A stretch of DNA of 40,249 nucleotides from Oscillospiraceae bacterium (GTDB taxonomy: Bacteria > Bacillota > Clostridia > Oscillospirales > Ruminococcaceae): assembly GCA_024404875.1 (NCBI GenBank), contig JAKSPK010000022.1, forward strand, positions 1 through 40,249. Direction: 5' to 3'. This document shows positions 17,567-36,517 of the stretch, piece by piece. How positions within the stretch are numbered: the first letter of the stretch is position 1; each line of letters starts with the position of its first letter. The notes beneath the pieces are model-generated. The model ran no database searches, had not been told where the DNA came from, and was given only the letters and a program-made list of their open reading frames with translations. Both the position numbers and the translations under genes were made by a program.

Positions 17567-19483
17567 ATGCGCATTTCTACACGAGTTCGGAAGCTATTTT
17601 CCGCAGCAGTCAGCGCGGTCATGACGGCTGTACTGATCATTCCGAATGTGCCTGCGACCGCAGCGACAGTCACCGTCGGCAAAACGCTGACCACCAAGGA
17701 GGGCTCAAATGCCTACCGCGGCGAGACTGCGGATCTTGCAGCATCGGGGCTTAAAACGATTTCCGTCTATGTGACGGTCGATGATGTTTCCGGCAGCACG
17801 GTGAATGTCTCCTACGGCTTTGGCATCGGTCTGGACGCATCGCCGTGGTGGATCGAGCTCGACCACGGCAAATTTACGCAGACACCGGCCGATGAAGCGG
17901 ATACCGGCACCTCCGTCGAGATCCCGGCCGGCAAATCGACACCGATCACTGTCGATGTCTCAAAGCTCAACATCAAGTACGAAACCGGGCAGTACGCAGG
18001 CGAATATGAATTCCGCAACTACTACTGCGGCGGCGGCACGCTGACCGTTGACAAGATCGTGCCGAACGATACCGCAAAGCCTGACACGCCCGCCAGCCCC
18101 TCAGGTACGGCTGCCAAGAGCGGCGCATGGTCGCTGACCGACAACAAGGACGGCACCGCGACGATTAAAACGACACTCACTGCGACGATTGACGACATCG
18201 GCGCGACGCTGACAGCAGGCACGGACGAGGAATACTATGAGGATGAGAACGGCGCCTCAACATGGGAGGAGGGAATGCCGATCAACAGCCGCAAACTGCT
18301 CTACGGCGATTTCGGCATTCCGGCATCCAGTGAAGATACCAAGGTCACGCTCGAATCCTTCCAGTTCAGTGTTTCTTCCAAGACCAATCTGGATACCTTT
18401 ATGTACGGCTGTGGCCTGAATGTTGAGTATATGTCTCCGGCAGATACCGAATACTGGCTCAGTGTTGAGGATAATCCGACGACCAGAAAGGGCTACTGGT
18501 ACAATGATCACGGCGACGATGAGGACGGCAATCCGACCGTTCCGGACGGCGTGCTGGATATCGAAGTCGGCAAAGGCGCCCGCCTTGAGGACTGCGGCAA
18601 GTGGGTAGAGGCAGTCTGGGAGGTTCCGGCAGATGTGCAGCCCTATGCGACCACGAAGGCTACTGATTCTGTTTCGTTCCAGTACTGGTACGGCGACAAC
18701 AATGAAAAGACATATATGGCGGTGGAGGAAGTGACGCTTGAATCGGCGGCCTGCACCTACACGATCGAAAAAACGGTCCCCTACAGCGGAGAGGCAGATG
18801 TTGCGATCGGTGAAAAGCTGACACAGGGTGACGATACATCCAATACTGTAAGTATGCTGTTCTCAGAGATGGATGGCATCGGTGAAAACGATTCACTGCA
18901 GGCTGTTGTGTTCAGCCTCACCTGCCCGTCCGCGATCAAGAAGCTTGTTTTCGGCGTGACAGTCTCCGATACTGCCTCCGCGGATCAGTACACGCAGATG
19001 CAGTACGCAGTCCTTGAAGCAGGCAAGACGCAGGAGATCTGTGTGCTGATTCCGGATGGCGTTAAGCCCGATCTCAAATACGGCAACCTTGGCTTCGGCT
19101 ACTACTACGGTGCGGATGCAAATGATAAGCTCGTCAGCTCGGTCACGCTGAACAGCGTGAAGCTGATCTATGACGAGGCACCGGCGGTTACGACAACGAC
19201 AACCGTCACGACCACGACCACTACGACCACCACGACTACGACCACCACCACGACTGCTTCGGTCAAGGCTTTGTGGGGTGATGCGGATCTCAGCGACGAT
19301 GTCGATGTTTCGGATTCCGTTCTGATCTGCCGCTATTCCGCAGAGGATCAGACCGCAGTTATCAGCACGCAGGGAAAGATCAATGCGGATGTCACACACG
19401 ACAGCATTGTCAATACTGCTGATGCAGCGAAGATCCTGCAAGCAGTTGCAAAGATCATCTCTATGGATGATCTTGCTCCGTGA
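17567..19483 (+). CDS. Secreted dockerin protein with beta-rich modules, no recognised catalytic domain
   Basis: The 638-residue protein has a signal peptide (basic start, hydrophobic core, cleavage likely after ATAAT near 34). Three beta-rich modules follow. Each ends in a similar aromatic stretch: FRNYYCGGGTLTVDKI, FQYWYGDNNE with VEEVTLESA, and FGYYYGADAN with VTLNSVKLIY. A threonine-rich linker (19187-19260 at DNA level) leads to a C-terminal type I dockerin: DADLSDDVDVSDS and NADVTHDSIVNTADA give the two Ca-binding loops. Dockerins bind scaffoldin cohesins, so this should be a cellulosome component, perhaps a carbohydrate-binding or structural subunit. The ATG at 17567 is chosen for GAAAGGAAGGGG before it and for the signal peptide; the open frame extends 51 codons upstream. 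The gene lies divergent from parA. Confidence 0.82.
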   Translation: MRISTRVRKLFSAAVSAVMTAVLIIPNVPATAATVTVGKTLTTKEGSNAYRGETADLAASGLKTISVYVTVDDVSGSTVNVSYGFGIGLDASPWWIELDHGKFTQTPADEADTGTSVEIPAGKSTPITVDVSKLNIKYETGQYAGEYEFRNYYCGGGTLTVDKIVPNDTAKPDTPASPSGTAAKSGAWSLTDNKDGTATIKTTLTATIDDIGATLTAGTDEEYYEDENGASTWEEGMPINSRKLLYGDFGIPASSEDTKVTLESFQFSVSSKTNLDTFMYGCGLNVEYMSPADTEYWLSVEDNPTTRKGYWYNDHGDDEDGNPTVPDGVLDIEVGKGARLEDCGKWVEAVWEVPADVQPYATTKATDSVSFQYWYGDNNEKTYMAVEEVTLESAACTYTIEKTVPYSGEADVAIGEKLTQGDDTSNTVSMLFSEMDGIGENDSLQAVVFSLTCPSAIKKLVFGVTVSDTASADQYTQMQYAVLEAGKTQEICVLIPDGVKPDLKYGNLGFGYYYGADANDKLVSSVTLNSVKLIYDEAPAVTTTTTVTTTTTTTTTTTTTTTTASVKALWGDADLSDDVDVSDSVLICRYSAEDQTAVISTQGKINADVTHDSIVNTADAAKILQAVAKIISMDDLAP

Positions 19484-32158: not shown

Positions 32159-32185
32159 GTGCTGAAAAGAATCATATCCGCTGAA

Positions 32186-32387
32186 AAAAAGAAAAATCAC
32201 TGCCGAAGCAGTGATAAAACTATTTTGCTTTCGCACTAGTTTTTCAGAGAAGCAAATGTGTACCGGCATTTGCTTCAGATACACCGAATTAACAGTACGG
32301 AGAGGGATTTCAGCGAGAGGGGTGGCTGAAAATGACTGTGCTTCCGGTGCCGGATGTTTTTGCAGGGATGAGGTTCATCTCAACTAT
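32186..32387 (-). ncRNA. Candidate structured noncoding RNA, about 200 nt
   Basis: The minus strand has a promoter (32394-32422), about 200 nt of sequence without a plausible gene, and an intrinsic terminator (ATCACTGC-TTCG-GCAGTGAT at 32215-32196, then a T-rich tail). Between them, in transcript order, lie the hairpins GATGA/TCATC (32379-32367), TTTCAGC/GCTGAAA (32331-32308), GAAGCAAATG/CATTTGCTTC (32276-32249) and AAAACTA/TAGTTTT (32243-32216). upp downstream has its own promoter, so this is probably not just a upp leader. The longest start-to-stop frame inside is only 22 codons and lacks a ribosome site. It matches no riboswitch, tmRNA or RNase P pattern I recognise; 6S RNA and the raiA RNA class are the alternatives of similar size. 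Confidence 0.6.
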
Positions 32388-32393
32388 GGCTAT

Positions 32394-32422
32394 ATTATAA
32401 CATACCCGACTAAACAATTCAA
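32394..32422 (-). promoter_or_regulatory. Promoter of the candidate noncoding RNA, with an overlapping palindrome
   Basis: On the minus strand TTGAAT (32422-32417), 17 bp and TATAAT (32399-32394). The -35 box falls within a perfect inverted repeat, ACAATTCA-ATGA-TGAATTGT (32414-32433), which could be an operator. Confidence 0.65.
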
Positions 32423-32433
32423 TGATGAATTGT
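32414..32433. promoter_or_regulatory. Operator-like perfect inverted repeat
   Basis: ACAATTCA and TGAATTGT are separated by ATGA and cover the -35 region of the RNA promoter. A related half-site GAATTGT recurs near 32484, upstream of spoVAC. The rest of the spacer between 32434 and 32549 is AT-rich leader of spoVAC with TATAAT-like boxes but no firm promoter. Confidence 0.4.
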
Positions 32434-32549
32434 ACTGTAACACTGTTATTTCATCTCCGCTTTGAAATATCTGGATGAATTATCACGAATTGTATAATGT
32501 ATAATTGTAAATAATACGGGGAATATAGCGACAGATAGGAGATGAGATC

Positions 32550-35095: not shown

Positions 35096-36517
35096 TTATT
35101 GTTCGAGCAGCATTTTCCAGCAGTCTTCTGCGGAAATGGTATGCTCGGCAACGATCTTTTCTGTGTAGAAGCGCAGGATCAGCTGCGCATCCGACAGGCC
35201 GACCGTGCCGTCACGGTCGATATCCGCTGCGAGGCTCTGACGGTTGTTCAGCGGTGCTAAATCATTGCCGCCCGTCACGCTGCGGACATATTCATTCAGC
35301 GCGAGGATCGCATCAAAGGAATCCACGATACCGTCCATATTGATATCACCGAGATCATCCCAGCCAATGCTGTCAACAGTCACGGTAAACTCATAGCGGC
35401 TGCTGCCGTTCTCTGCGGTGATGACCGCTTTTCCGGCTTGTCCGGCTGCCACAATGCCGTCCCAGATGACAGCGGCGACGGAATCATCGCTGCTGCTCCA
35501 GATATACCGCTCCGGATTGTCGAGCTGGAGATAAATGATCTCGCCCTCAGAAGCATTGTATCTGGTAATGGTTTCTGTCTCTGTGGAGACAGGCTGCTGC
35601 GGACGTGTGCTGGAATAGAGCGGCTGTTCCGGCTCGGTACCCGGTGAAGTGGTTGTTGTAGTGGTAGTAGTGGTAGTAGTGGTGGTCGTCGTCGTTGTAG
35701 TGGTTGTAGTTGTAGTGGTTGTTGTGGTGGTCGTTGTTGTAGTTGTAGTAGTTGGTGTTGTCGGTGTTGTAGTCGGAGCGGTCGTCACTGGTGCGGAACT
35801 GTTGTCCCATGTGATGCCATAAAGCTGCTCATAAACGGATGCGGACGGCTGAACGATATTGCTGACACCGCGTCCCTGACCGCTGGTAAAGCGCTGATTG
35901 AACTGCTCATAGGTAAAGGTATTTTTTTCGATCAGTCCCCAGCCGTCGGAGTTGCCTTCAATGACGGTGATGGTATTGGCATCATAGCCGAGAATGATGA
36001 TAGAGTGACCGCCGCTCGAATTGTGGCTGAGATCGGGGTTAACGGTTGTGCGGAGATACGCGCCCGGCATGACACGATTTGCGCAAAGGAGCTCCGGCGT
36101 GACCGTCCAGGCGCCGCATACTACAGATGTGCAGCGCTCGGTATTCATTGCGCAGTTGCCCGGCATTTCGCCGAAAAGCTTCCAGTAGACGCCCTGCGCG
36201 TAGATGTAGCATTGCATTCCGCTCCAGCCCTTGCCGTAGATGGTCGGAACATAATAAAGCTGCCTGATATTGAGACGGGAGCCGATCGGCAGTGGGACCG
36301 GTGTGGTGAGATCATAATCTGCAAAGACGCCGCAGCTTCCGGCGACGATCTCGTTGACCTTCGCATCGAAGCTGTAAGACTGGGCGTACTGTTCGGCTGC
36401 GACAGCATCAACGCTGACGGCGGATGCGGTCAGGCCCGCAGCAGTGGCTGAGAACAGCCCCGGCAGCAGGCTCAGCGCCGCAGCTGCCGCAATGATTCGA
36501 GTGAACATCTTTCTCAT
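35096..36517 (-). CDS. Secreted CHAP/NlpC-like cysteine hydrolase with Ig-like domain and dockerin
   Basis: The 473-residue protein has a signal peptide (about 1-38) and a papain-fold-like N-domain (about 50-235). GMQCYIYAQ (Cys103), GGHSIIILGYD (His171) and VIEGNSDGWG (Asn189) make a plausible C-H-N triad, as in CHAP amidases or peptidases. A threonine-rich linker of about 45 residues (DNA 35643-35790) leads to a BIG2-like Ig domain (WSSSDDSVAAV...GKAVITA) and a type I dockerin with two Ca-loops, DINMDGIVDSFDA and DIDRDGTVGLSDA. It would be an enzyme carried on the cellulosome or cell surface, acting on peptidoglycan or peptides. A consensus promoter lies about 200 bp upstream (36716-36744). 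AGGAGGTCACCCAACCC precedes the ATG. Confidence 0.82.
   Translation of the reverse strand: MRKMFTRIIAAAAALSLLPGLFSATAAGLTASAVSVDAVAAEQYAQSYSFDAKVNEIVAGSCGVFADYDLTTPVPLPIGSRLNIRQLYYVPTIYGKGWSGMQCYIYAQGVYWKLFGEMPGNCAMNTERCTSVVCGAWTVTPELLCANRVMPGAYLRTTVNPDLSHNSSGGHSIIILGYDANTITVIEGNSDGWGLIEKNTFTYEQFNQRFTSGQGRGVSNIVQPSASVYEQLYGITWDNSSAPVTTAPTTTPTTPTTTTTTTTTTTTTTTTTTTTTTTTTTTTTTTTTTTSPGTEPEQPLYSSTRPQQPVSTETETITRYNASEGEIIYLQLDNPERYIWSSSDDSVAAVIWDGIVAAGQAGKAVITAENGSSRYEFTVTVDSIGWDDLGDINMDGIVDSFDAILALNEYVRSVTGGNDLAPLNNRQSLAADIDRDGTVGLSDAQLILRFYTEKIVAEHTISAEDCWKMLLEQ
35643..35790. repeat. Low-complexity ACN/GTN triplet tract (threonine linker)
   Basis: The DNA is an imperfect array of threonine triplets with varied third bases (GTA, GTT, GTC and GTG complements). 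It encodes the Thr linker of the CHAP-dockerin protein. The shorter tract at 19187-19260 does the same in the other dockerin gene. Such tracts are prone to length change and to misassembly. Confidence 0.85.

Follow-up and report, generated by a model that had tools for sequence, protein, structure and literature searches.

A conserved structured small RNA with a promoter element common to cellulosomal genes in relatives of Ruminococcus

The spacer between upp and spoVAC, in the 40,249-nucleotide stretch of DNA that we analysed (the window), raises the question of whether its minus strand holds a structured RNA gene, to which class such an RNA would belong and on what it might act. A preliminary description of this DNA had proposed such a gene and had named 6S RNA, raiA RNA or something new as its possible identity.

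The RNA gene and its structure

Analysis of the sequence confirmed a predicted structured RNA gene on the minus strand from about 32387 to 32183; it is free-standing and has a promoter and a terminator of its own. Its parts are given by window coordinate.

32183..32387, minus strand: small RNA gene, from fold, alignment, covariance model and covariation; putative transcription start near 32387
32394..32422, minus strand: promoter, with -35 box TTGAAT at 32422-32417, 17-nt spacer and extended -10 box TATAAT at 32399-32394, from an alignment of 18 sequences
32367..32384, minus strand: P1, 5' hairpin GUUGAG/CUCAUC with one mismatch in the window, from covariation (85.6% of cells paired)
32281..32350, minus strand: P2, long-range helix of 32350-32343 with 32288-32281, plus an inner helix of 32339-32335 with 32296-32292, from fold, RNAalifold and covariation
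32308..32331, minus strand: P3, hairpin UUUCAGC/GCUGAAA with the C-rich loop CACCCCUCUC at 32324-32315, from fold and covariation
32300..32306, minus strand: second C-rich motif, CCCUCUC, single-stranded (unpaired probability 0.99-1.0) and unchanged in all 27 aligned sequences
32249..32276, minus strand: P4, hairpin GAAGCAAAUG/CAUUUGCUUC with the conserved loop CCGGUACA, from alignment and covariation
32216..32243, minus strand: extra hairpin before the terminator, from alignment rows L001-L003
32183..32215, minus strand: intrinsic terminator, UUCG-capped stem at 32215-32196 (AUCACUGCUUCGGCAGUGAU) and U-rich tail

The 17-nt spacing of the promoter and the UUCG-capped terminator with its T-rich tail were as the preliminary description had them. 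The -10 box is preceded by TG. The promoter is unremarkable by itself, since the promoter scan found one promoter-like site in the RNA-gene region against a mean of 1.7 in shuffles, and the case rests on conservation. The 212-nt stretch folded at -57.2 kcal/mol (z = -4.18), and 0 of 200 shuffles were equally stable. Behind the terminator, upp appears to have a separate minus-strand promoter, as had also been proposed: by eye, TTGCAT at 32158-32153, 17 nt and TATAAT at 32135-32130. It was absent from the promoter-scan output owing to its poor -35 box.

From 5' to 3' the RNA is a chain of helices: P1; P2, which encloses the inner helix and P3; CCCUCUC; P4; and the terminator. Its 5' and 3' ends do not pair with each other. 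P2, P4 and the terminator were recovered independently by RNAalifold, and the terminator stem sequence is nearly invariant across the genus. In the fold ensemble of the window RNA, the P4 loop and both C-rich motifs were unpaired, with a probability of 0.84-1.0 for the P3-loop motif CCCCUCUC. The P4 loop CCGGUACA carries A or C at its first position, and a different loop takes its place in a second genus. Among 19 aligned sequences, the extra hairpin was limited to the window species and its two nearest relatives; these are the same three species in which the RNA gene has other neighbours.

Conservation and comparison with known RNA classes

When 61 genomes were searched at the DNA level, 20 of the 30 from the window's genus matched and none of the 31 from outside it. 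A covariance model built from 19 loci found the RNA in 28 of the 30 genus genomes, once in each, and in 13 of the 13 with at least 90% completeness and at most 5% contamination; this search of the 30 did not find it in G007 and G029. Elsewhere in the bacterial family, G169 and G244, which belong together to one other genus, each carry a diverged relative that has the same P2, the same P3 and the C-rich core. Its neighbours in G169 (L062, G169:C1) are an aldose epimerase gene on one side and, on the other, a gene whose protein product has no Pfam match. Members of this RNA family are about 170-210 nt long. A weak covariance-model match outside the genus (L051, in G081) was rejected for want of the core motifs, and other weak matches outside the genus were attributed to chance, as the CCCTC...CCCTCTC core occurred in L217 alone of the 29 loci compared; eight further weak matches, without a locus, lie outside those 29. 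The P4-terminator pattern occurred in 16 metagenome-assembled genome records titled Ruminococcus, Oscillospiraceae or Clostridia, several of them named for herbivore rumen, omasum, rectum or faeces and one for pig. Viral contigs gave 0 matches to this pattern, and carriage by viruses was rejected on that ground.

In the 27-sequence alignment to the model, which was fitted to the structure, 92.1% of cells pair and 33 of 41 pairs show two-sided changes. The covariation score was 0.447, sliding the partners gave no more than 0.097, and 0 of 500 shuffles reached any measure. Two-sided changes occurred in all 8 P2 pairs and all 3 inner-helix pairs of the model. A plain MAFFT alignment of 19 sequences, on which the structure was drawn partly by hand, gave two-sided changes in 21 of 42 pairs and a score of 0.281 against at most 0.082 when slid, with one of five measures reached by 2 of 500 shuffles. 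L048 and L049, misaligned in the fourth alignment, were excluded from the 27 sequences together with L051, and L006 was excluded from the 18-sequence promoter alignment because its contig begins too close. The check for covariation among homologues that the preliminary description had called for thus gave a strong result, and the fold, the occurrence in 28 of 30 genomes and the covariation bear out its discrete minus-strand gene. These results show that the RNA gene is discrete, structured, under selection and apparently non-coding.

The neighbourhood of the gene is not constant. Among the first 20 loci, upp and spoVAC lie beside the RNA only in L001-L003, so that the suggested tie to upp or to spore genes was not supported, and a link to spoVAC was rejected. 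Judged from coordinates, a gene for a protein with a sugar-binding domain and GGDEF is divergent from the RNA or one to two genes away in 24 of 28 genomes. The exceptions are the window species with its two closest relatives, where this gene lies on a different contig, and G012, whose contig starts at the RNA. The RNA-less G007 and G029 hold only distant relatives of the protein (43-44% identity), and so does G012, in which the RNA is present (41%). Paralogues with the sugar-binding domain and GGDEF gave 8-28 matches per genome in the genus, among them G000:C1:57453-59393 (L070, L122) and its relatives.

We considered whether the locus could be a upp leader or riboswitch, an RNA antisense to a gene, or a gene for a small protein. 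The RNA is upstream of upp on the same strand, and the locus holds two reading frames, a plus-strand one of 84 codons and a minus-strand one of 22 codons. Against these readings, and in line with the preliminary description's view that this is not a upp leader, the RNA has its own terminator and adjoins upp at only three of 20 loci. The minus-strand frames differ between homologues with none shared, the spacing of conserved motifs, taken modulo 3, leaves 2 in 14, 1 in 8 and 0 in 4 of 26 homologues, and the 84-codon frame has no Pfam match. These results agree with the earlier statement that the region lacks a supported reading frame, and a small protein on either strand was rejected. We regard this group of explanations as very improbable. 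Equally improbable is a 6S-like RNA (a second paralogue) or another known class, even with a length of about 200 nt, a free-standing gene and a strong fold. No Rfam family matched at gathering score in the window, and the 32 further loci scanned (19 + 13, with overlapping genomes and with L020, which holds no homologue, among them) gave only one tRNA, beside a homologue. Permissive scans gave just weak scores, far below gathering. The absence of a gathering-score match applies to any Rfam family, among which RoxS/RsaE may or may not be modelled, and agrees with the earlier view that the RNA belongs to no recognised class. 6S RNA has a closing rod and a central bubble. The RNA described here resembles it in length and in being free-standing, but it is at a separate locus, its ends are unpaired and its helix chain has neither rod nor bubble. 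No RF00013 match was obtained at the RNA gene in gathering or permissive scans; the genome's own match, its sole one, is at G000:C25:28255-28468 (L021; 52.6 bits). raiA RNA is likewise structured and about 200 nt long (RF03072 model length 209), but RF03072 had no match in the window or, in a search for which no control genome matched and which therefore had no positive control, in the window's own genome. Both identities offered by the preliminary description, 6S and raiA, were rejected, and its third branch, something new, is the one supported. No prior report of this RNA was found by title or abstract opening in papers available without subscription. We consider it a new small RNA family, of an ordinary kind (C-rich and trans-acting) and novel in its identity and its link to cellulosomal genes.

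A promoter element common to the RNA and dockerin genes

The alignment of 18 promoters revealed one further feature.

32420..32446, minus strand: upstream element ACAGT-N8-ACAAT-N4-CATTG, a putative operator overlapping the -35 box

Relatives carry it upstream of and over the -35 box as ACAGT-N7/8-ACAAT-N4-CATTG. We searched the 30 genus genomes, in any gene class, with two whole-genome patterns, the second loosened after three matches of the first had been inspected. The exact pattern was found in 25 of 30 genomes and at the RNA in 24 of these, with 0 control matches; in G009 it is at another gene instead of the RNA. Read backwards, the patterns gave 0 sites in the same 30 genomes. Beyond the RNA promoters there were 11 strict sites, and 10 of them precede dockerin (cellulosomal) genes, which include three orthologues and so are not independent. 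Nine of these genes were confirmed by Pfam, and the tenth (in G026) shares 95% identity with a tested orthologue. They comprise rhamnogalacturonan lyases (2), GH43, GH53 (2), GH74-type (3), GDSL lipase-like and peptidase-like genes; the three that we take to be GH74 show BNR/Sortilin-like repeats and dockerin in Pfam. The eleventh site, in G016:C15, is unannotated and a poor match by eye. Dockerin matches numbered 60-149 per genome in five genomes, which at 900 genes per Mb would be about 3-5% of genes. The window itself encodes two secreted proteins of the dockerin type that carry long threonine linkers, at 17567-19483 (plus strand) and 35096-36517 (minus strand), and the gene of the former has GGGG in its ribosome-binding region.

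Promoters and ribosome-binding sites were compared in 666 genes (126 dockerin, 540 other) called from dockerin-rich stretches, chosen for their dockerin genes, in three genomes (G000, G028 and G003). The dockerin class was assigned with a profile built on 65 regex-found repeats, and the gene caller, a home-made one, prefers start codons that follow G-rich purine runs, in all genes alike. An element weight-matrix score of at least 16, one of six thresholds tried, was reached by 13/126 dockerin and 4/540 other genes; at 10 the counts were 21/126 and 35/540. Five column-permuted matrices each found at most one gene in either class, and one of the five gave p = 0.02. When anchored to a promoter, the element with at least 4/7 letters was present in 21/126 dockerin genes versus 15/540 others, or 21/72 versus 15/199 among genes with such a promoter, and with 5/7 letters in 8/126 versus 3/540. 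Five shifted controls at 5/7 letters gave no significant difference between the classes. When up to one mismatch was allowed and no promoter anchor was required, the element was not significantly enriched (4/126 dockerin versus 9/540 other). Most dockerin genes in the sample have no recognisable element, and only 3 of 28 GH74-type orthologues carry it (in G005, G021 and G026). These results suggest that the RNA is co-regulated with dockerin genes, a reading that the shared promoter sequences support well.

C-rich motifs, possible targets and role

The two unpaired C-rich motifs, CCCCUCU in the P3 loop and CCCUCUC, are both complementary in sense to G-rich ribosome-binding sites. Motif 1 varies among genomes (CCCCUCUC, CCCCCUCU, CCCCUCC) and keeps its complementarity to G-runs. 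GGGG preceded the start codon in 44/126 dockerin genes versus 56/540 others (p = 3e-10). By genome, the counts were 21/58 versus 16/174 in G028 and 18/47 versus 25/219 in G003; in the window genome G000 alone the enrichment was not significant (5/21 versus 15/147). Whatever the cause, G-run Shine-Dalgarno sequences are far commoner in cellulosomal genes (L165-L216) in two of the three genomes and overall. GGGG was also present in 8 of the 10 element-bearing genes and in 24 of 28 GH74-type orthologues, which are not independent of one another.

Direct pairing was examined in the start regions of these genes. In 26 genomes, GH74 start regions had perfect-complement runs to their own RNA core with a mean of 6.23, against 4.92 for shuffled seeds (0/200), counts that include G022 and G014, whose chosen start codon looks wrong. 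The run was 10 nt in G021; in the window genome, where the GH74-type gene has the G-rich ribosome-binding site GAGAGGGG, it was 8 nt with a duplex of -17.5 kcal/mol. Runs of at least 8 nt occurred in 7/26 GH74, 8/126 dockerin-class and 13/540 background genes, and runs were longer in dockerin genes than in others (p = 0.005). Several controls were negative. Composition-shuffled RNA segments did as well as the RNA in 70, 29 and 59 of 100 cases for dockerin duplex energies in the three genomes (this energy test used the regex alone, with 65 genes), and in 33, 20 and 14 of 100 cases for complement runs. In a swap test, GH74 mRNAs paired no better with the RNA of their own genome than with those of others (p = 0.18). 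GH74 was unexceptional in energy rank, with 9/168 sampled genes of the window genome pairing as strongly, and 74/232 and 83/266 in two others. Some pairing with Shine-Dalgarno sequences is to be expected of any C-rich RNA. Because several pairing controls were negative, direct pairing with dockerin mRNAs is only suggestive.

A close parallel is found among the C-rich small RNAs of Firmicutes, FsrA being of the same type as RsaE/RoxS. These RNAs are shorter than the one described here and have a redox or iron link. Like them, the RNA is free-standing, with its own promoter and terminator as read from the DNA, and has conserved unpaired C-rich motifs. Unlike them, it has several conserved helices, including the long-range P2, bears the motif CCCUCUC, matches no Rfam family at gathering score and has a promoter element in common with dockerin genes. 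RoxS/RsaE is reported to be trans-encoded, with several unpaired C-rich regions able to pair with G-rich Shine-Dalgarno sequences (PMC4409812).

We hold with about even confidence that the RNA belongs to a new family of small regulatory RNAs that act in trans by pairing with cellulosomal ribosome-binding sites in cellulosome-producing relatives of Ruminococcus. In such a mechanism, a regulator reading fibre availability would activate the RNA alongside some cellulosomal genes. The two unpaired C-rich motifs would pair with the G-rich ribosome-binding sites of cellulosomal mRNAs, such as that of the GH74-type gene, and the pairing would lower their translation. The sign of the regulation, repression by blocking of the ribosome, is suggested by analogy with C-rich RNAs of the RsaE/RoxS type (PMC4409812). 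The result would be a feed-forward brake that sets the timing or composition of the cellulosome. A bolder version, which we put forward tentatively, is that of a cellulosome-regulon RNA: one regulator acting via ACAGT/ACAAT/CATTG would drive both dockerin enzymes and the RNA, the C-rich motifs would ration dozens of cellulosomal mRNAs whose G-run ribosome-binding sites evolved for the RNA, and the CCGGUACA hairpin would recruit a partner protein. We know of no small RNA of a cellulosome regulon.

Two other readings leave the RNA gene as it is and change what it acts on. The duplicated CCCUCU and the CCGGUACA loop may titrate a protein, for example a KH-domain RNA-binding protein, in the manner of Csr-type sponges and not by mRNA pairing. 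CsrB/RsmZ-type sponge RNAs carry repeated short single-stranded GGA motifs. The RNA resembles them in repeating a short single-stranded motif, but the motif is CCCUCU, not GGA, it has two copies only, and protein binding is a candidate property. The two near-identical motifs, one in a hairpin loop and the other invariant in 27 of 27 sequences, would suit such a decoy, as would the second strongly conserved loop, in P4, which has no anti-Shine-Dalgarno character, and the negative results from shuffled segments, swap test and energy rank. Yet motif 1 drifts among its three forms while remaining complementary to G-runs, and G-runs are over-represented in the ribosome-binding sites of dockerin and element-bearing mRNAs; we consider a decoy doubtful. 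Somewhat unlikelier is a trans-acting pairing RNA with mainly non-cellulosomal targets in general metabolism, which the element would make a metabolic switch under the fibre regulon. The promoter link is strong and the target link weak, and strong complementarity also exists in non-dockerin genes, as such an RNA would lead one to expect, but the G-rich sites of element-bearing genes, the GH74-type among them, are unusual.

To our knowledge, it is poorly known how Ruminococcus of the rumen and hindgut select which dockerin-bearing proteins to deploy. The element common to the RNA and cellulosomal genes may define a regulon, and the motifs of the RNA may set the enzyme composition during fibre digestion. 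A conserved RNA with a promoter element common to cellulosomal genes offers a specific, testable entry point to this selection.
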